The notes below the pieces were generated by a model, which did no database searches, was not told where the DNA came from, and worked only from the letters and a program-made list of their open reading frames with translations. From the NCBI GenBank assembly GCA_002840735.1, contig PHBY01000002.1:124001-188000 (forward strand): a stretch of 64,000 nucleotides of DNA. The letters are read 5' to 3'. Of this stretch, positions 4,664 to 27,208 are shown piece after piece; position 1 is the stretch's first letter; each line of letters opens with the position of its first letter. Position numbers and translations under genes: made by a program. This DNA is from Chloroflexi bacterium HGW-Chloroflexi-2. Lineage in GTDB: Bacteria > Chloroflexota > Anaerolineae > Anaerolineales > Anaerolineaceae.

Positions 4664-5819
4664 AAAATATTTATTAGCTATTTTTATTTTATTGATCGTG
4701 ATATCTATTTTTTTTATAATCACGGGTAACAAACCTGCTCAATTGAGTGGATCCAACATTACATTCTTAGATGATCAAAGTAACACAGAAGAAAATAATT
4801 ATGAGAGGGCAATTGGTCGCATGGATTTTGTTTTTCCAGGCGATCACGGCGCTCATCCAGAATACCTGACAGAGTGGTGGTATTACACCGGAAATTTATT
4901 TGCGGATGATGGTAGACACTTTGGATATCAATTGACTTTTTTCAGAAGGGCTATCTCAGATCAATTTGTTGAATCAAGTACATCCAATTGGGCCAGCAAT
5001 CAGATCTATTTAGCACATTTTGCTGTAACTGATACAGCAAGTAATCAACATTATGTATTTGACCAGATTTCAAGAGGATCTGCCGGATTAGCAGGCACAT
5101 CGGTCGAACCATTGTTTTCCATCTGGCTAAAAGATTGGAAAATCGTTCAATTGGCGGATAATATTTTTCAAATGAATGCTGGATCCGATGATGTAAAAAT
5201 CAACTTAACTTTGACTGATACAAAAGGCATCATTTATCATGGTGAAAATGGCTTGAGTCAGAAAGATAGTGAGATTGGCAATGCATCATATTATTTCAGC
5301 CAGACACGGATGGAAACCACAGGTAGGATAAGAATTATTGATGAGGAATTTGATGTCAATGGATTTAGCTGGATGGATCACGAATTTGGCAGCAGCACAT
5401 TGGGAAGCGACCAAATTGGTTGGGATTGGTTCTCGATTCAATTGGATAATCAAACAGAAATTATGTTGTTTCAAATACGTCAGGAAGATGGAGGTATCAG
5501 TGAATTTTCCAGCGGCACAATTATATTTGAGGATGGAAGAACTGAGAAGTTGGAAGTAAACGATTTTAAAATTGATGTACTTGATACCTGGCAAACATCT
5601 GATCAAATAACCTATCCTAACGAATGGGGAATTATCATCGAGCAGGTTAATTTGAAATTGGAGATTACACCTGTGATGAATGATCAGGAGATGAACTTAT
5701 TTTTCCGTTATTGGGAAGGCGCTGTACAAATTAAGGCTAAACTAAATGGCGAAGAAATATCAGGTTATGGGTATGTCGAATTGACAGGTTATGCTCAATC
5801 CATGCAAGGTGTTTTTTAG
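4656..5819 (+). CDS. Lipocalin-like CrtC/AttH family protein, membrane-anchored
   Basis: This 387-aa protein belongs to the AttH / carotenoid 1,2-hydratase-like (CrtC) superfamily, built of two calycin-type barrels. The hallmark near the N terminus is HPEYLTEWWYYTGN (about residues 67-80), then GYQLTFFRR, and later GFSWMDHEFGSS and GWDWFSIQLDN. A strongly hydrophobic N-terminal stretch (about residues 5-23) followed by a polar linker suggests a signal anchor, placing it outside the membrane. It overlaps the permease gene by 8 bases, so it is translationally coupled to the ABC transporter. The pairing implies that the protein handles whatever lipophilic molecule the transporter moves. A true carotenoid hydratase role is unlikely without carotenoid genes nearby. 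Confidence 0.82.
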   Translation: MNKKYLLAIFILLIVISIFFIITGNKPAQLSGSNITFLDDQSNTEENNYERAIGRMDFVFPGDHGAHPEYLTEWWYYTGNLFADDGRHFGYQLTFFRRAISDQFVESSTSNWASNQIYLAHFAVTDTASNQHYVFDQISRGSAGLAGTSVEPLFSIWLKDWKIVQLADNIFQMNAGSDDVKINLTLTDTKGIIYHGENGLSQKDSEIGNASYYFSQTRMETTGRIRIIDEEFDVNGFSWMDHEFGSSTLGSDQIGWDWFSIQLDNQTEIMLFQIRQEDGGISEFSSGTIIFEDGRTEKLEVNDFKIDVLDTWQTSDQITYPNEWGIIIEQVNLKLEITPVMNDQEMNLFFRYWEGAVQIKAKLNGEEISGYGYVELTGYAQSMQGVF

Positions 5820-6886: not shown

Positions 6887-7729
6887 TTGGTAAATTTGAA
6901 AAAAGATATATCTGGAAAACTACTTTTTATTATAGGACTGGCATTAATTGGAGCTTCCATATTCAATATCTTTGAAGAACCTATTATGAATCAATATTAT
7001 AAATACAAGAGGTTATTTTCAATATCAAACATCAATCAAGTCCCAACCGTCAGTATTCCAGATCGTCCAGATCAACAAATCATCAACGAAACACAAGTTG
7101 GAACTTTGCCTACTTCGGACTCAAACCAGAACGAGGAACTAGTTGATTTTTCTGATTTTGAGGATGAAGGATTTTTACCTGTAAATATTGAAGTCTCAAC
7201 CAATAAAAAACCAACTCCAGAAAAAACGAAAGAATATGATGTCGTACCTGTAAGAATTTCCATTCCATCTATTGATTTAACAGCGGATATTATCAATGCC
7301 ACCAATAAAGAGATCATTCAAGGTGACAAAACCTATATTCAATGGTTAGCTCCAGATGAATACGCGATTGGATGGCATTTTGACAGTGCGTTTTTGGGTG
7401 AGCCAGGAAATACTGTATTGAATGGACATCATAATGTTTTTGGAAAAGTATTTGAGAACCTGGATAAATTGGTTTCTGGTGATGAGATATTCATTTATGG
7501 TAATGATTTTCATGTTTATCAATATGTTGTTTCCAATACGATGATACTTCCGGAACGCGATGTTAGTCTCGAAGAAAGATTAGAAAATGCCAGATGGATT
7601 CTGCCATCTGAAGATGAAAGAATCACATTAATCACCTGTTGGCCATACTTCAGCAATACGCATCGGCTTATAATTGTGGCAAGTCCAACTGGTTCAACTC
7701 TTTTACCCATCTCTAATGAAAGAAATTAA
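6887..7729 (+). CDS. Sortase (membrane-anchored transpeptidase)
   Basis: Sortases cleave surface proteins at an LPxTG-like motif and attach them to the cell envelope. An N-terminal membrane helix (about residues 11-28) is followed by a low-complexity linker to about 115 and a sortase barrel. The catalytic triad is visible: His181/His182 in LNGHHNVFG, Cys251 in ITLITCWPY (the TLxTC motif), and Arg260 in THRLIIVA. The start is a TTG at 6887 behind AAGG (6879-6882); a TTG at 6896 is the alternative. The two surface proteins encoded at 8.9 and 10.4 kb carry C-terminal IPVTG sorting signals and are the obvious substrates. The class (D, E or F) cannot be fixed by eye. Confidence 0.9.
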   Translation: MVNLKKDISGKLLFIIGLALIGASIFNIFEEPIMNQYYKYKRLFSISNINQVPTVSIPDRPDQQIINETQVGTLPTSDSNQNEELVDFSDFEDEGFLPVNIEVSTNKKPTPEKTKEYDVVPVRISIPSIDLTADIINATNKEIIQGDKTYIQWLAPDEYAIGWHFDSAFLGEPGNTVLNGHHNVFGKVFENLDKLVSGDEIFIYGNDFHVYQYVVSNTMILPERDVSLEERLENARWILPSEDERITLITCWPYFSNTHRLIIVASPTGSTLLPISNERN

Positions 7730-7784: not shown

Positions 7785-7812
7785 TTGACAAACCGATTAA
7801 ACCCTGTATAAT
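7785..7812 (+). promoter_or_regulatory. Consensus sigma-70 promoter for the leader RNA / response regulator unit
   Basis: A perfect TTGACA at 7785-7790 and a perfect TATAAT at 7807-7812 are separated by 16 bp. Transcription should start near 7819, only about ten bases before the first leader RNA copy. This is the best promoter in the window, so its unregulated output is probably high. Control would then fall on the two terminators downstream. Confidence 0.88.
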
Positions 7813-7826
7813 ATAGGTAAGTAATC

Positions 7827-7927
7827 AGGAGGCTGAGAATCAGACTGAAATTTGGTCGCTTCCCCTTGAAGTTCAGGGTAATGTCTGAGGAGCCTAGTAG
7901 CGAAACCGGCCTGTAAAGTCGGTTTTT
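7827..7927 (+). promoter_or_regulatory. Structured leader RNA with terminator, copy 1 (candidate new riboswitch)
   Basis: AGGCT (7830-7834) pairs with AGCCT (7891-7895). An inner stem TCAGAC (7840-7845) pairs with GTCTGA (7883-7888), leaving a GG bulge on the 3' side. CCCT (7863-7866) and AGGG (7875-7878) make a small hairpin. TCGCT (7856-7860) can pair with AGCGA (7899-7903) beyond the closing stem, giving a pseudoknot that GG (7854-7855) with CC (7906-7907) can extend. ACC of that strand is also the start of the terminator 5' arm (ACCGGC 7905-7910 with GTCGGT 7918-7923, then a U run). The two folds compete, as in a transcription-terminating switch. No match to GEMM, SAM, TPP, T-box or other classes that I can recall. 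Confidence 0.75.
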
Positions 7928-7950
7928 GTTATTTAAAAATCAAATATTGT

Positions 7951-8052
7951 GGAGGCTACGAAGCGAGCATGCAATTGGTCGCTTACTCTGATAAAGAGAA
8001 AGTGTTCGTGGAGCCTAGAAGCGAAACCGGCCGTAATACGCCGGTTTTTTTT
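7951..8052 (+). promoter_or_regulatory. Structured leader RNA with terminator, copy 2
   Basis: It has the same architecture as copy 1, about 24 bases after that copy's terminator. AGGCT-ACGAA (7953-7962) pairs with TTCGT-GG-AGCCT (8005-8016), keeping the GG bulge. The inner hairpin is CTCT/AGAG (7986-7989, 7995-7998) with loop GATAA; copies 1 and 3 have CCCT/AGGG here, a compensatory change. TCGCTT (7979-7984) can pair with AAGCGA (8019-8024). The terminator AACCGGC (8025-8031) / GCCGGTT (8040-8046) is followed by eight T. The RBS GGAG (8058-8061) of the response regulator follows directly, so this copy gates that gene. Confidence 0.78.
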
Positions 8053-8066
8053 ATTTTGGAGAAAAG

Positions 8067-8828
8067 ATGATCAAAGCACCAGTAAAAAATAATGATACTC
8101 AAGCTCAGAGCATTGGTATTGATCTGGATGAGACATTGAGAAGAAACAAAAAAGTGCTCATCGTTGATGATGATCCTGATACTGTTGAATTGATCAAACG
8201 TATTTTGAGGTTGTCTGATTTTGATGTTGTTTCTGCTCGCAATGGAATGGATGCCATCTCCATCGTTGAAAAAATCCAGCCAGATATTGTGTTATTGGAT
8301 CTTATGATGCCTGAAGTAGATGGAAGAACAACATTAAGAAAACTTAGAGATTTTACCCAGTCACCGGTTATTGTGGTTTCTGCATTGAACAGCAAAGATA
8401 ATATTGTTGATTTACTCAATTTGGGCAGTGATGACTACATCACTAAACCATTCCACAGGGATGAATTAATTGCTCGTATTAACGCGGTTTTAAGAAGATC
8501 AAAATTATTAACTGTGATTGACGGGGTATCCATTCCAGAAACTGGATTAACCATCAATTTCTCAAAACGCGAAGTGAATTTTCAAGGTCAATTTGTCCAA
8601 CTTTCCCCAAAAGAATACGAACTCATTGAATTATTAGCAAAGAATTTGCCTCATGTTGTCAAATACAAAGAAATTGCTGATGAAATATGGGGTGAAAACA
8701 GTAACTATGTAAAGAATAGAATTAAATACCTGGTGCACACCATTCGAAATAAATTTGAAGAAATTAAACCAGGAATTGAAGTAATTATTACAGCGGATCG
8801 TGTTGGATACAGGATCCAGACCGATTAG
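8067..8828 (+). CDS. OmpR/PhoB-type response regulator (orphan)
   Basis: This 253-aa two-domain regulator has an unusual N-terminal extension of about 28 residues. The receiver domain spans roughly residues 29-145: acidic cluster VDDDPD near 33-38, phospho-acceptor Asp78 in VLLDLMMPEVDG, Ser105 in VVSAL and Lys127 in ITKPF. A winged-helix DNA-binding domain occupies about 160-250 (LSPKEYELIELLAKN, then VKYKEIADEIWG). No histidine kinase is encoded nearby. GGAG at 8058-8061 is the ribosome site, immediately after the terminator of leader RNA copy 2. The PTNT surface protein follows 27 bases later, so both are likely co-transcribed. It may control surface genes, including the second one at 10.4 kb; that is inference. 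Confidence 0.93.
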   Translation: MIKAPVKNNDTQAQSIGIDLDETLRRNKKVLIVDDDPDTVELIKRILRLSDFDVVSARNGMDAISIVEKIQPDIVLLDLMMPEVDGRTTLRKLRDFTQSPVIVVSALNSKDNIVDLLNLGSDDYITKPFHRDELIARINAVLRRSKLLTVIDGVSIPETGLTINFSKREVNFQGQFVQLSPKEYELIELLAKNLPHVVKYKEIADEIWGENSNYVKNRIKYLVHTIRNKFEEIKPGIEVIITADRVGYRIQTD

Positions 8829-8855: not shown

Positions 8856-9866
8856 ATGTCATCTAAATTTAGAAAAATCTTAAAATTTTTACCCCAGTTC
8901 TTTACCATACTGGGTGCCGTCAGTGTCGCATTTGCGATGCTGTTATCTTTGGTGAATGTGCCTGTTCAAGCAGCAGAAATTAACGCACCAGCTGATACTT
9001 GTCCTGATGGATATGATGGGTGGGTAAAAGTAAATGTTGGTGACAAACCTACATTTACTTACACAGCCCCCGGTGAATACTTAATTGCAGAATGGTGTTA
9101 TAAGGCTGGAAGAAATCCTCTTGTATTTGGAGTCGTAAATCCTCCTCAAAAAACAGTTACATTGGTAAGCATTTATCAACAAGGCATAAGTCATGCCTCA
9201 TTTAGATTGATTATTCCAACCCCAACTAATACACCAACCAACACACCGACTAATACACCAACCAACACACCGACCAATACGCCAACCAACACGCCAACCA
9301 ATACACCAACTAACACGCCAACCAATACACCAACCAACACGCCAACCAATACACCTACCAACACACCGACGAATACTCCAACGAACACAGCTGTGACACC
9401 ACCTCCGGACGAAACACCTACAAATACACCGGAAACGCCCACTGCCACACCGGAAACGCCCACTGCCACACCGGAAGCGCCTACTGCCACACCGGAACAA
9501 CCAACTGCCACACCGGAACAACCAACTGCCACACTGGAACAACCAACTGCCACACCGGAACAACCAACTGCCACACCCGGTGATCCTGGAACAACCCCAA
9601 CACCTGATTTACCTGAAGAAACTCCTACACCAGGTGATCCAACTGCAACTCCTGGAACAGGTGAAACTCCAGATCCGACACCACAACCTACACTTCCTCC
9701 GCCCACGAGCAATGATCCTCCGACCATCTTAATTCCAGTCACCGGCATGGAAATTGGAAATCATTCACCAATAGATAAGGTACAGTCAGTTATGTTCAAT
9801 ATGGGGCTTGGATTCCTGGGATTAGGATTAGTACTACAGTCTCTTAGAAAAAAGTTGAATTTTTAG
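8856..9866 (+). CDS. PTNT-repeat cell-surface protein with IPVTG sorting signal (1)
   Basis: This is a 336-aa secreted protein of unknown function. A signal peptide (about residues 1-39, cleavage near VQA-A) leads into an approximately 80-residue N-terminal domain with two cysteines. A proline/threonine stalk follows, with 14 perfect Pro-Thr-Asn-Thr units and then Pro-Thr-Ala-Thr-Pro-Glu-type repeats. The C terminus has IPVTG at 293-297, a short spacer, a hydrophobic segment (about 311-328) and a basic tail RKK, the layout of a sortase sorting signal. The N-terminal domain is shared with the protein at 10380 (common pattern EWCYKA...VFGV, then ISHA.FRL). The RBS AAGGAGA lies just upstream of the ATG. 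The Thr-rich stalk is a likely glycosylation target and probably lifts the domain off the cell surface. Confidence 0.88.
   Translation: MSSKFRKILKFLPQFFTILGAVSVAFAMLLSLVNVPVQAAEINAPADTCPDGYDGWVKVNVGDKPTFTYTAPGEYLIAEWCYKAGRNPLVFGVVNPPQKTVTLVSIYQQGISHASFRLIIPTPTNTPTNTPTNTPTNTPTNTPTNTPTNTPTNTPTNTPTNTPTNTPTNTPTNTPTNTAVTPPPDETPTNTPETPTATPETPTATPEAPTATPEQPTATPEQPTATLEQPTATPEQPTATPGDPGTTPTPDLPEETPTPGDPTATPGTGETPDPTPQPTLPPPTSNDPPTILIPVTGMEIGNHSPIDKVQSVMFNMGLGFLGLGLVLQSLRKKLNF
9222..9389 (+). repeat. In-frame 12-bp tandem repeat (14 units, PTNT)
   Basis: Fourteen tandem 12-nt units of the form CCN-ACN-AAY-ACN each encode Pro-Thr-Asn-Thr. Units differ mainly at third codon positions, so the amino-acid pattern is kept by selection more tightly than the DNA. 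Unit number could vary between strains by slippage. Less regular Pro/Thr/Glu repeats of about 18 nt continue to roughly 9590. Confidence 0.95.
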
Positions 9867-9916: not shown

Positions 9917-10188
9917 ATTTACAAACATTGAAATTCTACTTACAAATTTATGAGGAAGTTGAACACTTTTTAAATTGCTAAACGAATGAATTTGTTAGAA
10001 AGAGGTTATAAATGGTTATACAATATATGATAAAAAAGGTAATAATAGTGTAATATATGATTCATATTGAAATTATTAGTTTTAATGAGGATTTGAATCA
10101 AAAAAATTGATGAAATTGTAAATTTGAGATTTTGAATGCGGTAAATGATATGTAAGTCAGTCACAGATATTTAATAATTCAGTTTGTT
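9917..10188 (+). other. AT-rich intergenic stretch upstream of leader RNA copy 3
   Basis: About 270 bases of very AT-rich DNA without an ORF. It should hold the promoter for leader copy 3, but no pair of boxes close to consensus is seen at the expected position; the best -35-like TTGAGA lacks a good -10 partner. This contrasts with the perfect promoter before copies 1 and 2. Dependence on an activator such as the neighbouring response regulator would fit, but no repeated binding site could be picked out by eye. Confidence 0.35.
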
Positions 10189-10288
10189 GGAGGCTATGAA
10201 GCGGACATGTAATTGGTCGCTTACCCTGATAAAGGGAAAGTGTTCGTGGAGCCTAGAAGCGAAACCGGCCTTTTTGTGCCGGTTTTTT
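10189..10288 (+). promoter_or_regulatory. Structured leader RNA with terminator, copy 3
   Basis: This is closely related to copy 2, about 2.2 kb downstream of it. AGGCT-ATGAA (10191-10200) pairs with TTCGT-GG-AGCCT (10243-10254), where C-G of copy 2 becomes U-G. The inner hairpin is CCCT/AGGG (10224-10227, 10233-10236) with loop GATAA. TCGCTT (10217-10222) can pair with AAGCGA (10257-10262). The terminator AACCGGC (10263-10269) / GCCGGTT (10278-10284) runs into six T. It precedes the second surface protein gene by about 90 bases, with a short RBS-plus-ORF remnant between. Confidence 0.78.
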
Positions 10289-10301
10289 AATTGGAGAAAT
10301 T

Positions 10302-10379: not shown

Positions 10380-11348
10380 ATGTTATCAATCGTACGAAAA
10401 TTATTAAAGTTTTTACCCCAATTTTTCACGGTTTTGGGGGCTGTTAGTGTTGCGTTTGCAATGCTTTTATCACTGGTAAATGTGCCGGTAAGTGCAGCAA
10501 ATACAAATCAAGGCGTAGGATCCGGGTGTCCACCTTCAGGTGAGGATGGATGGACAGATGATTTACCTGGGCAGAATAGTATCTATTTTGATTACAATGC
10601 CCCAGATGGACAATTAATCGTTGAGTGGTGTTATAAAGCTGCAACGGAGTTGGTATTTGGAGTTGAAAATCCTGGAGTCACTTCTATTCGGTTAACTAGC
10701 TCGGTTCTAAATAGAAATGGTCAAGTTCAACAAATCAGCCATGCAGCGTTTAGACTGATAGATGTTGTCCCAACCAATACGCCTACAAACACACCTACTA
10801 ATACACCAACCAACACACCTACTAATACACCAACCAACACACCTACTAATACACCAACCAACACACCTACTAATACACCAACCAACACACCTACTAATAC
10901 ACCTCCTCCGGATGAAACGCCAACAAATACTCCAGTAACCCCAACACCGGAGGATCCCACTCCGACACCAGTAACCCCAACACCAGAGGATCCCACCCCG
11001 ACACCAGTAACTCCTACACCGGAGGATCCCACTCCAACACCAGTAACCCCAACTCCTGAGGACCCTTCACCTACACCGGCTGATCCAACGCCAACTCCTG
11101 GAACTGATGAGACGCCTAATCCAACTGAGACACCCGTGACGGATGAGACACCTGATCCAACTGCTCAACCTACATTACCACCACCAACAAGTAATGATCC
11201 ACCTACCGTTTTAATTCCGGTTACTGGATCAGAATTAGGAAGTAATTCACCATTGGGAAAAGTACAATCAGTGATGTTCAATTTTGGTTTAGGTTTCTTA
11301 GGTATAGGTATTGTTCTTCAATCATTGCGAAAACGATTGAATTTCTAA
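10380..11348 (+). CDS. PTNT-repeat cell-surface protein with IPVTG sorting signal (2)
   Basis: This 322-aa paralogue of the protein at 8856 is similar in layout throughout. The signal peptide is nearly the same (LKFLPQFFTVLGAVSVAFAM core, cleavage near VSA-A). The N-terminal domain again has two cysteines and the EWCYKA...VFGV pattern. Eleven PTNT units follow, then about four Val-Thr-Pro-Thr-Pro-Glu-Asp-Pro-type repeats. The C terminus has IPVTG at 279-283, a spacer, a hydrophobic helix and RKR. The RBS AAGGAG is a few bases upstream of the ATG. Nearly identical ends with divergent repeat regions indicate an old tandem duplication with fast repeat turnover. It is a predicted substrate of the sortase at 6887; the biological role is unknown. 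Confidence 0.88.
   Translation: MLSIVRKLLKFLPQFFTVLGAVSVAFAMLLSLVNVPVSAANTNQGVGSGCPPSGEDGWTDDLPGQNSIYFDYNAPDGQLIVEWCYKAATELVFGVENPGVTSIRLTSSVLNRNGQVQQISHAAFRLIDVVPTNTPTNTPTNTPTNTPTNTPTNTPTNTPTNTPTNTPTNTPTNTPPPDETPTNTPVTPTPEDPTPTPVTPTPEDPTPTPVTPTPEDPTPTPVTPTPEDPSPTPADPTPTPGTDETPNPTETPVTDETPDPTAQPTLPPPTSNDPPTVLIPVTGSELGSNSPLGKVQSVMFNFGLGFLGIGIVLQSLRKRLNF
10770..10901 (+). repeat. In-frame 12-bp tandem repeat (11 units, PTNT)
   Basis: Eleven tandem 12-nt units each encode Pro-Thr-Asn-Thr, several alternating between two near-identical DNA variants in a 24-nt higher-order period. The count differs from the 14 units of the paralogue. From about 10934 a second repeat family of 36 nt takes over. 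Confidence 0.93.
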
Positions 11349-11417: not shown

Positions 11418-12128
11418 TTAAAAACTTACCCTCATTTTTTGATCTTGAAAATCAATCAAGTCCACGATGCCAATATCAGTCACTGGAAACGCCTGAACAA
11501 ATAATCTGCCCCAGGAAGGTTCATTTCCCTGTGCGATGCACGTCTGAATAACAAGACTACCTTCTTCCGTATAAACTTCCATGAATAAATCGACAGCGCT
11601 GAGAACTCTGGAAGAGTCGTTCAAATCAACAAAATTTGAATAAGGGCTGTTGGGTGATAAAGCCTGGAAGGATAAGATTTTTTCTACTTTATATAGTTTA
11701 TATTCCTTATTGGCGGTTACCAAAACAATTAAATCATTTTCTTCTAATTGAGAAAAATTCGAACCAGCCAAATGATTATGGGCTAACAGTCCTGTGGAGC
11801 CAAATTGACTGGCAAGTGAAAACTCAGTAACGACATCGGATTCATTTGAAACAAAATCTGGTCGTCCGGTTGGTTGTTGCGCAATGGGTAAGGTAAAGAG
11901 TTTCGGAACGATCATGCCGACATATTGATTTCCGGTTTTTTTGGTGGTGACATTTTTAATGAATTGATAAAATTTATTAAAATTAATAGTTTGAAATTTA
12001 AAATTAATCGTTTCACTGGTTAGGCTGGCATCTCCGGTTACTGGAACTAAATTGGAAGAAGCTGGCCCAATAATTGTTGTTAAGACGAAAATGATTAATA
12101 TTAATGTTGAAAAAAGTTTGTTTTTCAT
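11418..12128 (-). CDS. Secreted sortase-like protein (divergent)
   Basis: This 236-aa protein has an N-terminal signal sequence (hydrophobic residues about 5-21). The rest resembles a sortase barrel: GLLAHNHLAGS (His117/His119), VIQTCIAQGNEPSWGRLF with Cys197 in a TC motif, and Arg208 eleven residues later. This His-Cys-Arg order and spacing is that of sortases, but overall similarity is low and there is no clear membrane anchor apart from the signal. Strikingly, LVPVTG occurs at residues 27-32, right after the signal, and resembles the IPVTG motif of the two surface proteins. It is convergent with the surface island and divergent from yebC. It could be an auxiliary sortase, a regulator, or a protease of that fold. 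Confidence 0.62.
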   Translation of the reverse strand: MKNKLFSTLILIIFVLTTIIGPASSNLVPVTGDASLTSETINFKFQTINFNKFYQFIKNVTTKKTGNQYVGMIVPKLFTLPIAQQPTGRPDFVSNESDVVTEFSLASQFGSTGLLAHNHLAGSNFSQLEENDLIVLVTANKEYKLYKVEKILSFQALSPNSPYSNFVDLNDSSRVLSAVDLFMEVYTEEGSLVIQTCIAQGNEPSWGRLFVQAFPVTDIGIVDLIDFQDQKMRVSF

Positions 12129-15347: not shown

Positions 15348-17006
15348 ATGGCACAACCAGGCAGGAATTTTACTGAAGAATTTTTAAAGAAAATTGAAAA
15401 ATTTGAGACATCATTTGAAATTAGATCCGTTGGAACCGTAACTGAAGCCGGAGATGGAATTTGTCAGGTAGAGGGTCTGGCAGATATTCGATCTCAGGAA
15501 CTGGTTCAGTTTGAAAATGGAATAATTGGTATTGCATTCAACCTGGAAACTCATTCTGTTGGTGTCATTATTCTAGGAGATTTTTCGAAAATTTCAGAAG
15601 GAATGAGCGTTTACTCAACAGGTAGAATCGCTTCTGTACCCGTTGGTGATGGGTTGATTGGTCGGGTTGTAAATGCCTTGGGGGAACCAATTGACGGAAA
15701 AGGGTCAGTCAGCTTTGAAGAGTATCGCCCAATCGAGCGAATTGCACCTGGAGTCGTCGGCCGTCAGGATGTCGATACTCCTGTGCAAACCGGAATTATC
15801 ACCATTGATGCCCTTATCCCGATTGGACGAGGACAACGAGAATTAATTATTGGTGATCGCCAAACCGGGAAAACCGCCATTGCAATTGATACCATTCTCA
15901 ATCAAAAAGGAAAAGACCTGATTTGTATTTATGTAGCGATCGGTCAGAAGAAATCAGCTATTGCTCGCACGGTTGCTCTACTAGAACAATATGGCGCCAT
16001 GGACCATACCATTGTAGTGGTTGCTTCAGCGGATGAATCAGCGGCTTTACAATATATAGCGCCCTATTCTGGGTGCGCGCTCGGTGAATATTTCATGGAA
16101 ATAGGTCGAGATGCCTTGGTGGTATATGACGATTTAAGCAAACATGCCTGGGCGTATCGTCAGGTTTCGCTTTTATTAAGACGTCCTCCTGGTCGTGAAG
16201 CTTATCCTGGAGATTTATTTTATTTGCATTCACGATTACTTGAACGTGCTTCAAGGTTGGCAACTCAATATGTAATTGTTCCAAAAGAATTTAATGGAAG
16301 TGCTTCTGAAAAAGAATCAACCAATGGAGTAGTATATAAAGGTCCTCAAGCATTGGAAATGGCTGAAAAAGCCCACAGAGATTTAGCAAACAAAGAAGAC
16401 CTAAAAGTGGAAAAAGTTCAGGGTACTGGTGGATCGCTGACAGCTCTACCAATTATTGAAACACTATTGGGTGACGTATCTGCATACGTACCCACGAATG
16501 TGATTTCGATTACAGATGGGCAAATATACCTGGAATCGAATTTATTCAATGCCGGTATACGCCCTGCAGTTAATGCTGGTATCTCTGTCTCACGTGTTGG
16601 TGGCGCCGCACAAACGAAAGCCATGAAACAAGTCGCCAATCGCCTCCGTCTAGACATGGCTGCTTTCCGTGATTTAGCGGCATTTGCCCAATTTGGTGCT
16701 GATCTGGATAAAGCGACGCAGGATCAATTGAATCGTGGTCTTCGGTTACAGGAAGTCCTTAAACAACCTCAATACGAGCCTATGGAACTGGAAGATCAAG
16801 TGATCACTTTATTTGCCAGTGTAAACGGTTTTGCCGATAAAATAAATCTGGATCGTGTGAAAGAATGGCAGGAAGGTCTTATCAAATACATGGAAAATAC
16901 CTATCCTGAAATTCGAAAAAATATAGCCAATAAAAGAAGTATTTCCGAAGAAACAGAAAAGAAACTTAGAGAAGTAATTCCTGTCTATAATTCAACCTGG
17001 AAATAA
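15348..17006 (+). CDS. atpA: F1F0 ATP synthase subunit alpha (long form)
   Basis: This is the regulatory nucleotide-binding subunit of the F1 head. Walker A is GDRQTGKT at residues 169-176; the family stretches [34 protein letters not shown] and LTALPIIET are all present. At 552 aa it is about 50 residues longer than common alpha subunits. The extra piece lies at about residues 305-359, between [13 protein letters not shown] and [13 protein letters not shown] comparable segment occurs in alpha subunits of several other phyla, so it is a subtype feature rather than a defect. GGAGG lies just before the ATG. The gene is first of atpA-atpG-atpD-atpC; delta and the F0 genes are absent here. Confidence 0.97.
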
Positions 17007-17029
17007 CAACTGGATAAGGATAATAATTC

Positions 17030-17929
17030 ATGAGTTCAGCTCGCGAAATGCGATTACGCATCAAAAGTATAAAAAACTTATCACAGGTTACTCGAGCGTT
17101 ACAGACTGTCAGTGCCAGTAAGGTTCGCAAATCCATGCAGGCTATGTCAGCGACCAGTGCTTACGCTGAGAAAGCCATGCAAGTTCTGGTTCATTTGGCC
17201 AAACAACCTGGGCATCAAATGCTTCACCCATTGCTGGCTGAGCGATCAGACATACGGAATACACTTTGCATTCTTATCACAAGTGATCGTGGGTTGGCAG
17301 GTTCTTACAATGTCAATATCGTTCGTAAAACCCTGAATTATTTCGAAGAAATTAAAACGCCTGTTTCCTATGTTGCGGTTGGTAGGAAAGGTAGAGATAT
17401 GTTAGTGCGCAGAAGAAAGAAAGTCGTCGCAGATTTTAGCCAAATCCCAACCCCTCCACGTTTTAATGATGTATCAGCTATTGGATGGCTGGCAGTTGAC
17501 GAATTTCTAGAGAAAAATTACGATCAGATATTTATTGCTTACACTCAATTTGAGAGTATGTTGTCACAAATACCTGTTGTACGACGAATATTACCTTTAT
17601 TCGTCCAGACTGATGATGAAGTGGATCCTTACCAACGGCAAAATGAAGCAAGGAAGACAAGTGGTGTATATTCTTACGAACCTGGCCAAACTGAAATATT
17701 AGATGAAATTGTTCCCCGATTTACGGCATTACAGATTTACCAATCAATTTTAGTTGCTCAAGCCAGTGAAAATGCCGCCAGGATGATGTCTATGCAGAAT
17801 GCAACGGAAAATGCATCTGAGTTAATATCATTTCTTCAACTTGATTACAATAAAGCTCGACAACAAAGCATAACCAATGAAATGTTGGATATTGCTGGTG
17901 GTGCAGAAGCATTATCACAGGCTAAATAA
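17030..17929 (+). CDS. atpG: F1F0 ATP synthase subunit gamma
   Basis: This 299-aa central stalk subunit rotates inside the alpha-beta ring. The N-terminal helix SAREMRLRIKSIKNLSQVTRAL and the C-terminal helix with SENAARMMSMQNATENA form the coiled coil entering the head. The middle segment ITSDRGLAGSYNVNIV is the conserved Rossmann-like part. An Arg/Lys-rich loop (LVRRRKKVVADF) is typical. It is 23 bases after atpA and 29 before atpD. Normal length. Confidence 0.97.
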   Translation: MSSAREMRLRIKSIKNLSQVTRALQTVSASKVRKSMQAMSATSAYAEKAMQVLVHLAKQPGHQMLHPLLAERSDIRNTLCILITSDRGLAGSYNVNIVRKTLNYFEEIKTPVSYVAVGRKGRDMLVRRRKKVVADFSQIPTPPRFNDVSAIGWLAVDEFLEKNYDQIFIAYTQFESMLSQIPVVRRILPLFVQTDDEVDPYQRQNEARKTSGVYSYEPGQTEILDEIVPRFTALQIYQSILVAQASENAARMMSMQNATENASELISFLQLDYNKARQQSITNEMLDIAGGAEALSQAK

Positions 17930-17958
17930 AAAACTTCTTTCTTTGATGGAGAAAATAA

Positions 17959-19362
<1,404 letters not shown>

Positions 19363-24815: not shown

Positions 24816-25048
24816 TTTCCACTCCAAACTCTTTTTACAATAAAGGGTTAAGTGAATTCTATCAAAAGAATGCGATATTATGGACTTGATTATTTTTATC
24901 CATTAATCTAGAAAAATTTCAGGACATTTATCCATACCAAGAGTGACATCTACTGTTCAATTGCCTTGAAAAGAATCATTATAATTTTTAATAGAATATT
25001 GAATTAAAAATAGCTATATTGTTTTCACAGAAATCTCAGGAGGAGAAA

Positions 25049-27208
25049 ATGACAATTGTTTCAACTCAAGAAATTAGATCCTCACATAAGTTATTGGCTG
25101 ATTATTCATACGACTTAAAAAAGGTTGTTAATGGATATTCCAACCGAACACTTTATATTGATCTGGGTAGGTTAAAAATTGAAAGTAAACCTGTATCTCA
25201 AAAAATGAAAGATACATTTACTGGGGGAAAGGGTTTTTGTCTGTGGTTATTATGGAATGGAACAAAACCTTCAACTCAATGGGATGATCCAGAAAATGAA
25301 CTGGTTTTTTCGTCAGGACCTATTGGTGGTATCACCATGTATCCCGGCAGTGGAAAAGTTACTGTCACAACGATATCCCCGTTGACTCATTCTGTGATTG
25401 ACAGCAATGGCGGTGGTTATTTTGGTCCTTATCTTAAATTTGCTGGTTGGGATGCCTTGGAGATACAGGGAAAAGCAGATCAGGAAGTAATCATTTTTAT
25501 CGATGGTGATAGTGGTCGGGTAACGATCGAAGCTGCTCCTTTAGATCCTATTGACACCCATCTTGTCAACACCATGTTAACAAACTTGTATGCGAAAGAT
25601 GAAAAAGATAAAAGAAATATTTCAGTTATCTCAGCTAGTCAGGCAGCAGAATATATCCCGATTTGTGGTTTGAATATCAGTTATTATGATCCCAAAAGAG
25701 ATGAAGTGCGTTTTAAACAAGCAGCCCGAGGGGGAGGCGGTACAGTATTGAGAAATAAACATATTAAAGCAATTGTAGTTCGTTACAGTGGATTATCAGC
25801 CAACAGTAACGGGGTTGCAAACATGGAATTGTTGCGCAAAGCCGGAGCGAGAATAAACAAAGAGATTACAACTTTTGATGCGTCTCAAAATGATATGCGT
25901 CATACGGGTACTCCTTATTTGGTGGATATCATGAATCGGTTTGATTTGTTACCTACTTATAATTTTAAGTATGGCTCTCACGCAGATTCCTATAAGATTG
26001 CCGGTGATTTCTGGAAGAAAAGGTTCGACCATAGCGGACCAGATGGATGCTGGTATGGTTGCACAATGTCATGCGCACACGGGGTAGCTCATTACCACCT
26101 GAGGACGGGACCCTATAAAGGAGACGCCGTTTTTGTTGATGGTCCAGAATACGAAACTCTTGGCGGGTTAGGATCAAATATAGGTGTTTTTGAGCCAGAG
26201 GATGTATTGGAGTTGAATTTTTATGCTGATACATATGGGATCGATACGATTTCTTTAGGAAATTCAATTGCATTCGCGATGGAATGTTACGAGTTAGGAA
26301 TCCTTGATAAAGAAAAAACCGGTGGATTGGAGTTGATTTGGGGGAATTCTGATGCAGCGCTTACCCTGGTACATCAAATGGCAAAAGGAGAAGGATTTGG
26401 TGTAACAGTTGGTCAGGGTGTACGAGCTATGAAGAAAATATTCGCTGAGAAGTTTGGAGCAGATCCAAAGATTATGCAGGATATTGGAATGGAAATTAAG
26501 GGCATGGAGATCTCTGAATACATCTCAAAAGAATCAATTGCCCAACAAGGTGGATTTGCTTTAGCATCCAAAGGCGCACAACACGATGAAGCCTGGTTAA
26601 TTTTCATGGAAATGGTGCATAAACAACTTCCAACTTTTGAGGATAAAGCAGAAGCGTTACATTATTTCCCGATGTGGAGAACATGGTTCAGTCTGCACGG
26701 TTTATGTAAATTACCATGGAATGACATCATTCCGGAAAGCAATAAAACAGCATCTGAACCTGCTAAAGTGCCAGAACATGTGGAGAATTACACCTGGTTA
26801 TTTGAAGGCGTTATTGGTGAAAAGATTACACCTGATGAGATTATTGAACAATCTGAAAAAGTTTATAACTTTCAACGATTATTTAATCTGCGTTTAGGTT
26901 TTGGAACCAGAGAACATGATTATCCACCATATCGGGCAATGGGTCCAGTAACAATCGATGAATATGAATCGAGAATTGATCGGTATGATGTTGAATTAAG
27001 TGGTATTGGCAAAAATGTCGATCAATTTTCCACACAGGAGAAACTAGTAGCTTTAAGACAATATCGGGAAGGTCGTTATGAGCAGTTGGTTGATGCTGTT
27101 TACAAACGACGTGGATGGAACAAAAATGGTATTCCAACACGCGAAACTGTCAATAGACTTGGGATTGATTATCCTGAAATATTGAATCTCATTGAAAAAA
27201 ATATATAA
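25049..27208 (+). CDS. aor: Aldehyde:ferredoxin oxidoreductase (tungsten enzyme)
   Basis: This 719-aa AOR-family enzyme oxidises aldehydes to acids with ferredoxin as acceptor, via a bis-tungstopterin and a [4Fe-4S] cluster. The N-terminal domain begins VNGYSNRTLYIDLGRL and contains GGKGFCLWLLW. The cluster ligands are DGCWYGCTMSCAHG (Cys-x3-Cys-x3-Cys) and a fourth Cys in LHGLCKLPW. At about 720 residues it is longer than the classic archaeal AOR (about 605), with an extended C-terminal region. The start at 25049 is set by AGGAGG at 25038-25043. It is monocistronic with a good terminator; no ferredoxin or pterin-synthesis gene is adjacent. The natural aldehyde cannot be inferred. Confidence 0.92.
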   Translation: MTIVSTQEIRSSHKLLADYSYDLKKVVNGYSNRTLYIDLGRLKIESKPVSQKMKDTFTGGKGFCLWLLWNGTKPSTQWDDPENELVFSSGPIGGITMYPGSGKVTVTTISPLTHSVIDSNGGGYFGPYLKFAGWDALEIQGKADQEVIIFIDGDSGRVTIEAAPLDPIDTHLVNTMLTNLYAKDEKDKRNISVISASQAAEYIPICGLNISYYDPKRDEVRFKQAARGGGGTVLRNKHIKAIVVRYSGLSANSNGVANMELLRKAGARINKEITTFDASQNDMRHTGTPYLVDIMNRFDLLPTYNFKYGSHADSYKIAGDFWKKRFDHSGPDGCWYGCTMSCAHGVAHYHLRTGPYKGDAVFVDGPEYETLGGLGSNIGVFEPEDVLELNFYADTYGIDTISLGNSIAFAMECYELGILDKEKTGGLELIWGNSDAALTLVHQMAKGEGFGVTVGQGVRAMKKIFAEKFGADPKIMQDIGMEIKGMEISEYISKESIAQQGGFALASKGAQHDEAWLIFMEMVHKQLPTFEDKAEALHYFPMWRTWFSLHGLCKLPWNDIIPESNKTASEPAKVPEHVENYTWLFEGVIGEKITPDEIIEQSEKVYNFQRLFNLRLGFGTREHDYPPYRAMGPVTIDEYESRIDRYDVELSGIGKNVDQFSTQEKLVALRQYREGRYEQLVDAVYKRRGWNKNGIPTRETVNRLGIDYPEILNLIEKNI

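Follow-up and report, generated by a model that had tools for sequence, protein, structure and literature searches.

Each of three RNA copies encoded in a 64,000-nucleotide stretch of the HGW-Chloroflexi-2 genome (the window) is, with a probability of roughly 0.86, a c-di-GMP-II-type riboswitch that acts as a c-di-GMP ON switch by antitermination, doubled before a response regulator gene and single before a gene for a surface protein (Table 1). Homology to c-di-GMP-II, covariation of the pseudoknot, a pocket with the canonical letters, overlap of terminators with aptamers, genes with GGDEF and EAL domains and a recurring gene context were all computed directly. By their sequence, the copies are divergent representatives of an already known riboswitch type, and default annotation misses them.

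The three copies and the c-di-GMP-II clan

Re-reading of the sequence placed the conserved words, stems and pseudoknot strands of an earlier, preliminary description exactly where it had reported them, and its shared, pseudoknotted and riboswitch-like fold in tandem leaders was recovered in three copies, together with a real compensatory change in the inner hairpin (CCCT/AGGG vs CTCT/AGAG). The second stem described for copies 2 and 3 (ACGAA/TTCGT and ATGAA/TTCGT) needs correcting, since it lies in a register other than that of the stem common to the homologues, which is GCGAGCAU/GUGUUCGU in copy 2 and GCGGACAU/GUGUUCGU in copy 3. Among nine copies from the same genome, this homologue-wide helix changes on both sides at seven of seven counted pairs with 96.8% of cells paired; in the same nine copies P1, the outer stem, is weak, with pairing in 62.3% of its cells. 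The motif pattern has three matches in the 4.1 Mb genome, every one inside the window, and the reversed-pattern control has none. The folding energies of the three single sequences are not outstanding against shuffles (z of -0.92, -1.47, and -2.01); the evidence for the RNA is comparative.

Table 1. Features on the plus strand of the window and, in the last row, phylum RNAs with an A-C-G pocket
Feature	Position	Strand	Evidence or remark
Sortase gene, upstream of tandem leader	6887-7729	+	Pfam PF04203 Sortase, E 4.5e-23
Promoter-like site TTGACA-N16-TATAAT	7785-7812	+	Promoter scan; 12/12 consensus bases; ends six bases before copy 1
Copy 1 aptamer, c-di-GMP-II-type	7819-7920	+	RF01786 38.3 bits, E 5.6e-7 (whole genome 1.6e-6); alignment
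Copy 1 pseudoknot	7856-7860 with 7899-7903	+	TCGCT with AGCGA
Copy 1 pocket letters	A7904, A7905, G7908	+	
Terminator 1	7903-7931	+	Stem 7903-7910 with 7918-7925, then T-run
Copy 2 aptamer, c-di-GMP-II-type	7942-8041	+	RF01786 36.6 bits, E 1.8e-6 (whole genome 5.1e-6)
Copy 2 pseudoknot	7979-7983 with 8020-8024	+	
Copy 2 pocket letters	A8025, A8026, G8029	+	
Terminator 2	8024-8052	+	Stem 8024-8031 with 8040-8047, then T-run
Response regulator gene downstream of copies 1 and 2	8067-8828	+	Response_reg 1.4e-29, Trans_reg_C 4.9e-15
Surface-type protein, Thr-Pro repeats, IPVTG C-terminal signal, next gene behind the same leader	8856-9866	+	Sequence and repeats
Copy 3 aptamer, c-di-GMP-II-type	10180-10279	+	RF01786 32.5 bits, E 7.1e-5 over genome
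Copy 3 pseudoknot	10217-10221 with 10258-10262	+	
Copy 3 pocket letters	A10263, A10264, G10267	+	
Terminator 3	10262-10289	+	Fold of copy 3; missing from second scan (scan end 10400)
Paralogous IPVTG surface-type protein behind copy 3	10380-11348	+	Sequence and repeats
A-C-G RNAs	L035:1500-1586, L083:501-589, L073:501-585, L078:502-586, L086:501-585, L093:500-584 and 5232-5316, L092:500-586		

The preliminary description had proposed a new riboswitch class that would have no Rfam match. This held at the gathering threshold, where a scan of the window returned only a tmRNA and two tRNAs and no member of clan CL00127, but not by E-value: the RF01786 (c-di-GMP-II) model aligns over its full length (1-84) to all three copies, the match is significant, and the claim of a new class was not borne out. 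A default scan misses the three copies because their scores lie under the RF01786 cut-off of 53.5 bits, and because this gathering score, a curated annotation threshold rather than a structural feature, is not reached, they are filed as divergent members of clan CL00127 and not as Rfam-assigned RF01786. The RF03169 model (c-di-GMP-II-GAG) gave copies 1 to 3 scores of 34.7, 32.8, and 26.2 bits, short of its gathering score of 40, and RF03170 (c-di-GMP-II-GCG) had no window match at its own cut-off.

Across the same genome, RF01786 marks nine places with E-values between 6.6e-10 and 7.1e-5; none reaches 53.5 bits, the best scoring 50.3. Three are in the window, three on contig C24 and three form a triplet on contig C14; two weaker places score 26.2 and 20.2 bits. 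Four of the nine copies pass the RF03169 cut-off of 40, with the window copies below it. A copy from Longilinea arvoryzae with the same words GGTCGCTT and AGTAGCGAAACCGGCC scores 55.7 bits and so passes the RF01786 cut-off. Among seven Anaerolineales loci compared with the clan cut-offs, a copy lies above in L185 (RF01786) and in L201 and L180 (RF03169), and no cut-off is passed by the three copies of L161 or by L163, L178, and L181. Two other identities were set aside: Chloroflexi-1 RNA, only listed in the available text of PMC2864571, was suggested by no Rfam scan of the window, and RF02977, tried as a variant family, proved to be a wrong accession (that of THF-II) and gave no match.

Covariation and distribution across the phylum

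At E ≤ 1e-4, 70 of 301 phylum genomes contain an RF01786 match, which exceeds the cut-off in 34, and 0 of 14 control genomes do; for RF01786 at a loose limit of E ≤ 10, ten of the 14 controls have matches, none above the cut-off, so weak single matches mean little. No listed match from the window's order in this phylum sample is over the cut-off, the best scoring 51.8. A covariance model, R1, was built from the nine copies of the genome itself and comprises P1, the short core stem and P2, with the pseudoknot left out. Of 97 loci cut out around RF01786 hits, R1 recovers 92, including RNAs that score up to 70.3 bits with RF01786, and misses L041, L079, L088, L103, and L113, two of which are above the RF01786 cut-off.

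The reverse test with R1 yielded 110 matches in 100 sources. Across these 110 rows 97.6% pairing is seen in the pseudoknot, a helix outside the R1 model, and four of its seven pairs change on both sides, one of the four in a single row. The covariation score of all four helices is 0.613, vs 0.183 in shuffles that take no account of relatedness among rows, and was reached by 0 of 500; the same structure slid along the alignment scores at most 0.111. One of five covariation measures, further pair types, was reached by 34 of 500 such shuffles. Positions here follow our own numbering, obtained by subtracting 6 from the numbering printed for the solved aptamer, an offset that agrees with the printed letters. 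Pair 34-62 is U-A in 65 rows, G-C in 27, A-U in two and C-G in two, and unpaired in ten; pair 36-60 is A-U in 53 and G-C in 53, and unpaired in none; pair 38-58 is U-A in 62, C-G in 37 and U-G in four, and unpaired in two, with gaps in four or five of the 110 rows at pseudoknot pairs. The pseudoknot that joins the P2 loop to the 3' strand is formed in all three window copies and covaries over 110 phylum rows, and the pairs proposed in the preliminary description do covary among homologues.

Among 301 genomes sampled from the order, 130 match R1, as do 84 of the 174 better ones. An exact pattern scan found 82 stretches, and ten of the 80 loci listed are not Chloroflexota by title. Two of these, L191 (2586-2673; Acidimicrobiales) and L218 (7731-7818; Acidimicrobiaceae), score 60.3 and 65.8 bits with R1 and carry the same words GGTCGCY and GCGAAACCGG, and the form is therefore not confined to Chloroflexota. 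The remaining eight were treated as chance, as R1 gave 14.0-19.2 bits for L215, L184, L197, and L169 (in L197 away from the pattern site) and nothing for L164, L165, L168, and L231. A record whose title names a plasmid of Leptolinea sp. HRD-7 carries two copies (L199:6172-6276 and L230:6500-6609). A search of the literature on c-di-GMP riboswitches in Chloroflexi or Anaerolineae found no title on the subject; the available text of one survey describes a scan with all these Rfam models and mentions riboswitch enrichment in Chloroflexota, and this survey may include relatives of these RNAs (PMC12452182).

Terminators, gene surroundings and predicted switching

The region holds 11 promoter-like sites, vs 8.8 expected, and the one upstream of copy 1 is alone in having all 12 consensus bases; the sister locus L161 agrees with it in 27 of 28 aligned columns. 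Transcription starting about seven bases past this site would begin on the first base of copy 1, and with such a site only six bases away the first aptamer is probably the 5' end of the transcript. Directly behind each copy stands a terminator with the 5' arm AAACCGGC, whose first base is also the final base of the pseudoknot 3' strand (7903, 8024, and 10262; a second scan puts the first two one base earlier), and in copy 1 the arm takes in the pocket as well as that base. The pseudoknot 3' strand accordingly runs into the terminator 5' arm, and the mutual exclusion of the two structures proposed earlier was judged right. The terminator figures relied on are those of a stricter scan with ten dinucleotide shuffles for each copy, in which 41 of the 61 order copies have a 5' arm that starts within positions 61-69, vs 7.1 expected, and no such terminator was found in the other 20. 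A first scan without shuffles gave, for 29 order rows, 20 overlapping terminators, seven further down and two rows with none, and for 81 other phylum rows, 35, four, and 42, respectively.

The terminator stem uses A62 to C69 (own numbering), which the aptamer needs for the pseudoknot, the pocket and P1, so bound ligand should prevent termination. With c-di-GMP bound, pseudoknot and pocket would hold AAACCGGC, the terminator directly behind could not form and transcription would continue; with c-di-GMP absent, the terminator would halt transcription. Copies 1 and 2 each have a terminator of their own, and RNA polymerase would have to pass both before it could transcribe the genes of the response regulator and the first surface protein, so that the tandem would steepen the response; copy 3 would gate the second surface-protein gene. 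That c-di-GMP is the ligand, that the switches work in the ON direction and that the pair responds more steeply are inferences; a second messenger had earlier been considered a conceivable ligand, a suggestion judged right.

Neither of the two surface-type proteins matches a Pfam family at E 0.001, and their IPVTG C-terminal signal is taken by us to be an anchor. A 236-aa protein encoded beside the surface genes (window 11418-12128, minus strand) also matches no Pfam family at E 0.001 and is present in L161 as well. This sister locus, from HGW-Chloroflexi-3, has the same gene order and three RNA copies; copy 2 there has C-G in place of the hairpin pair T7987-A7997 and A-U in place of the P2 pair G7967-U8005, with pairing kept at both, and has lost the loop-closing hairpin pair T7989-A7995. 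Recurrent genes downstream of the RNA are those of surface-type proteins, sugar-polymer genes and response regulators. A response regulator also follows in L126, L130, L133, L134, L047, and L048 (translations read; Pfam run on the window's only). Pfam searches of ten other downstream proteins found MBG, PKD, DUF11 or DUF4215 surface-type domains in L060, L150, L054, L062, and L128, a sugar transferase in L050 and a hexapeptide transferase in L049, and no family in L142, L146, and L143.

The genome has 16 GGDEF and two EAL matches, and on contig C24 one GGDEF gene is separated by about 6 kb from three single copies (15886-18522 and 24838-25305). Fifteen of 61 order copies are located no more than 200 nt from another copy. 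At L013:5839-6169 an aptamer triplet, with starts 104 and 118 nt apart, precedes the gene of a large secreted-type protein; a terminator lies behind its third aptamer and none behind the second (the scan covered these two, the first not being aligned), and the second and third may share one platform.

Pocket letters, alternative readings and known systems

The available text on the solved class II structure lists contacts at A13, A14, U37, G39, U60, A61, C68, A69, A70, C71, C72, G73, and A74 (PMC7288161). All three copies keep U37, G39, A61, A69, A70, C71, C72, and G73, and in all three C68 is A and A74 is G; the partner of position 68 has changed along with it (G-C to U-A), so that the pair is kept, and the RF01786 consensus itself has a lower-case g at 74. 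The pocket letters at 69, 70, and 73 are A-A-G in 60 of 61 order copies and A-A-A in one, and in the 110 phylum rows A-A-G in 87, A-C-G in eight, G-A-G in six, G-C-G in two and A-A-A in two, with five singles; the A-A-G shares are biased upward, as the loci were found with models that favor it. Position 69 (63 in own numbering) is A in 61 of 61 order copies vs G in the GAG consensus. The pseudoknot letters of the window, GGUCGC/GCGA, are those of the RF03169 consensus, and in the order pair 34-62 is U-A in 57 of 61 rows and pair 36-60 is G-C in 60 of 61. The order therefore mostly pairs GAG-type pseudoknot letters with a canonical-class pocket.

The GAG class is named after three pocket letters, in agreement with the consensus and the scanned variants. 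Membership of GAG (RF03169) and of GCG (RF03170) was rejected for all three copies, their pocket being A-A-G and not G-A-G or G-C-G. Five RNAs have GAG or GCG as best Rfam match, with the letters G-A-G in L101, G-C-G in L094 and L082, G-C-C in L090 and A-C-G in L092; the family name fits exactly in three of the five. Among 26 copies in 20 order loci (L012, L013, and L045-L062), 17 pass the RF03169 cut-off despite an A-A-G pocket; the GAG model thus takes in RNAs without a G-A-G pocket, the family name may mislead about the ligand of those 17, and a ligand guessed from it could be wrong.

Eight phylum RNAs with C at position 70 (Table 1) have an A-C-G pocket that is neither canonical, GAG nor GCG, a possible further specificity variant; three of them are over the RF01786 cut-off and one over the GCG cut-off. 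In three genomes a canonical A-A-G copy occurs with one or two G-A-G copies (L017 with L101, L018 with L096 and L112, and L037 with L105), which would fit two different ligands per cell. All ten G-69 rows among the 110 are on the G-C form of pseudoknot pair 36-60 and none on the canonical A-U form, and A-A-G rows are present on both. It is tempting, if rather doubtful, to regard the Anaerolineales copies as a bridge state, in which a GAG-type pseudoknot and A68 replaced the canonical one and the A-A-G pocket was kept; the scaffold would then have changed before the pocket when the GAG and GCG specificities arose, and A68 may already broaden or shift the choice of ligand among cyclic dinucleotides.

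Descendants of c-di-GMP-II could also have changed their ligand, for instance to another cyclic dinucleotide or to that of the GAG class, as might be suspected from the GAG pseudoknot letters, from the scores over the RF03169 cut-off in the 17 order copies and four own copies, and from the A that stands where C68 is a contact in the available account of the solved structure (PMC7288161). This is improbable given the A at position 69 in all 61 order copies, the naming by Rfam of all three G-A-G or G-C-G rows run against it according to their letters (L101 as GAG; L094 and L082 as GCG), and the 16 GGDEF matches in the genome. An attenuator sensed by a protein or a trans RNA instead of a small molecule is highly improbable: the terminator/antiterminator geometry, which taken alone fits any antitermination signal, is accompanied by letters that many families of the phylum conserve in the pocket and pseudoknot of c-di-GMP-II. 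The new pseudoknotted class of the preliminary description, which fits the empty result at the Rfam gathering threshold, was rejected with near certainty, as the full-length RF01786 match is significant, RF01786 loci are recovered by a model made from the genome's own copies, and the Longilinea copy with the same core is over the RF01786 cut-off.

A c-di-GMP ON switch by antitermination remains the preferred reading, and predicts that in this bacterium c-di-GMP turns on surface proteins, sugar-polymer genes and a response regulator. It would extend c-di-GMP riboswitch control to a lineage in which default Rfam thresholds miss many copies; overall, this is ordinary biology in an under-annotated lineage.

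The copies share with RF01786 the GGA-GGC / GGA-GCC core, P2, GG/CC plus a five-pair pseudoknot, the pocket letters A-A-G with U37 and A61, and surface-protein targets. They differ from it in their pseudoknot (UCGCU/AGCGA in the window vs GCACU/AGUGC), in a 17-27 nt stretch and extra hairpin that the nine own copies carry between the pseudoknot strand and P2, in a weak P1, and in the low score of the window copies. Tandem class II switches are known from one survey, the available text of which counts 59 doublets and nine triplets, mostly before a putative surface anchor gene and expected to sharpen the response (PMC9481103). RF03169 has the pseudoknot letters in common with the window, whereas its pocket is G-A-G and the window scores fall below its cut-off; RF03170 belongs to the same clan, CL00127, but has a G-C-G pocket and no window match at its cut-off. 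The available text of PMC6200980 describes the four class II switches of C. difficile (Cdi-2-1 to Cdi-2-4) as ON switches, with c-di-GMP raising the genes downstream of each, and places two of them ahead of genes for surface proteins that depend on sortase. The window copies resemble these switches, whose ON direction was measured in C. difficile, in their position before surface-protein genes, and differ in belonging to another phylum, in standing also before a response regulator and in having a doubled leader.
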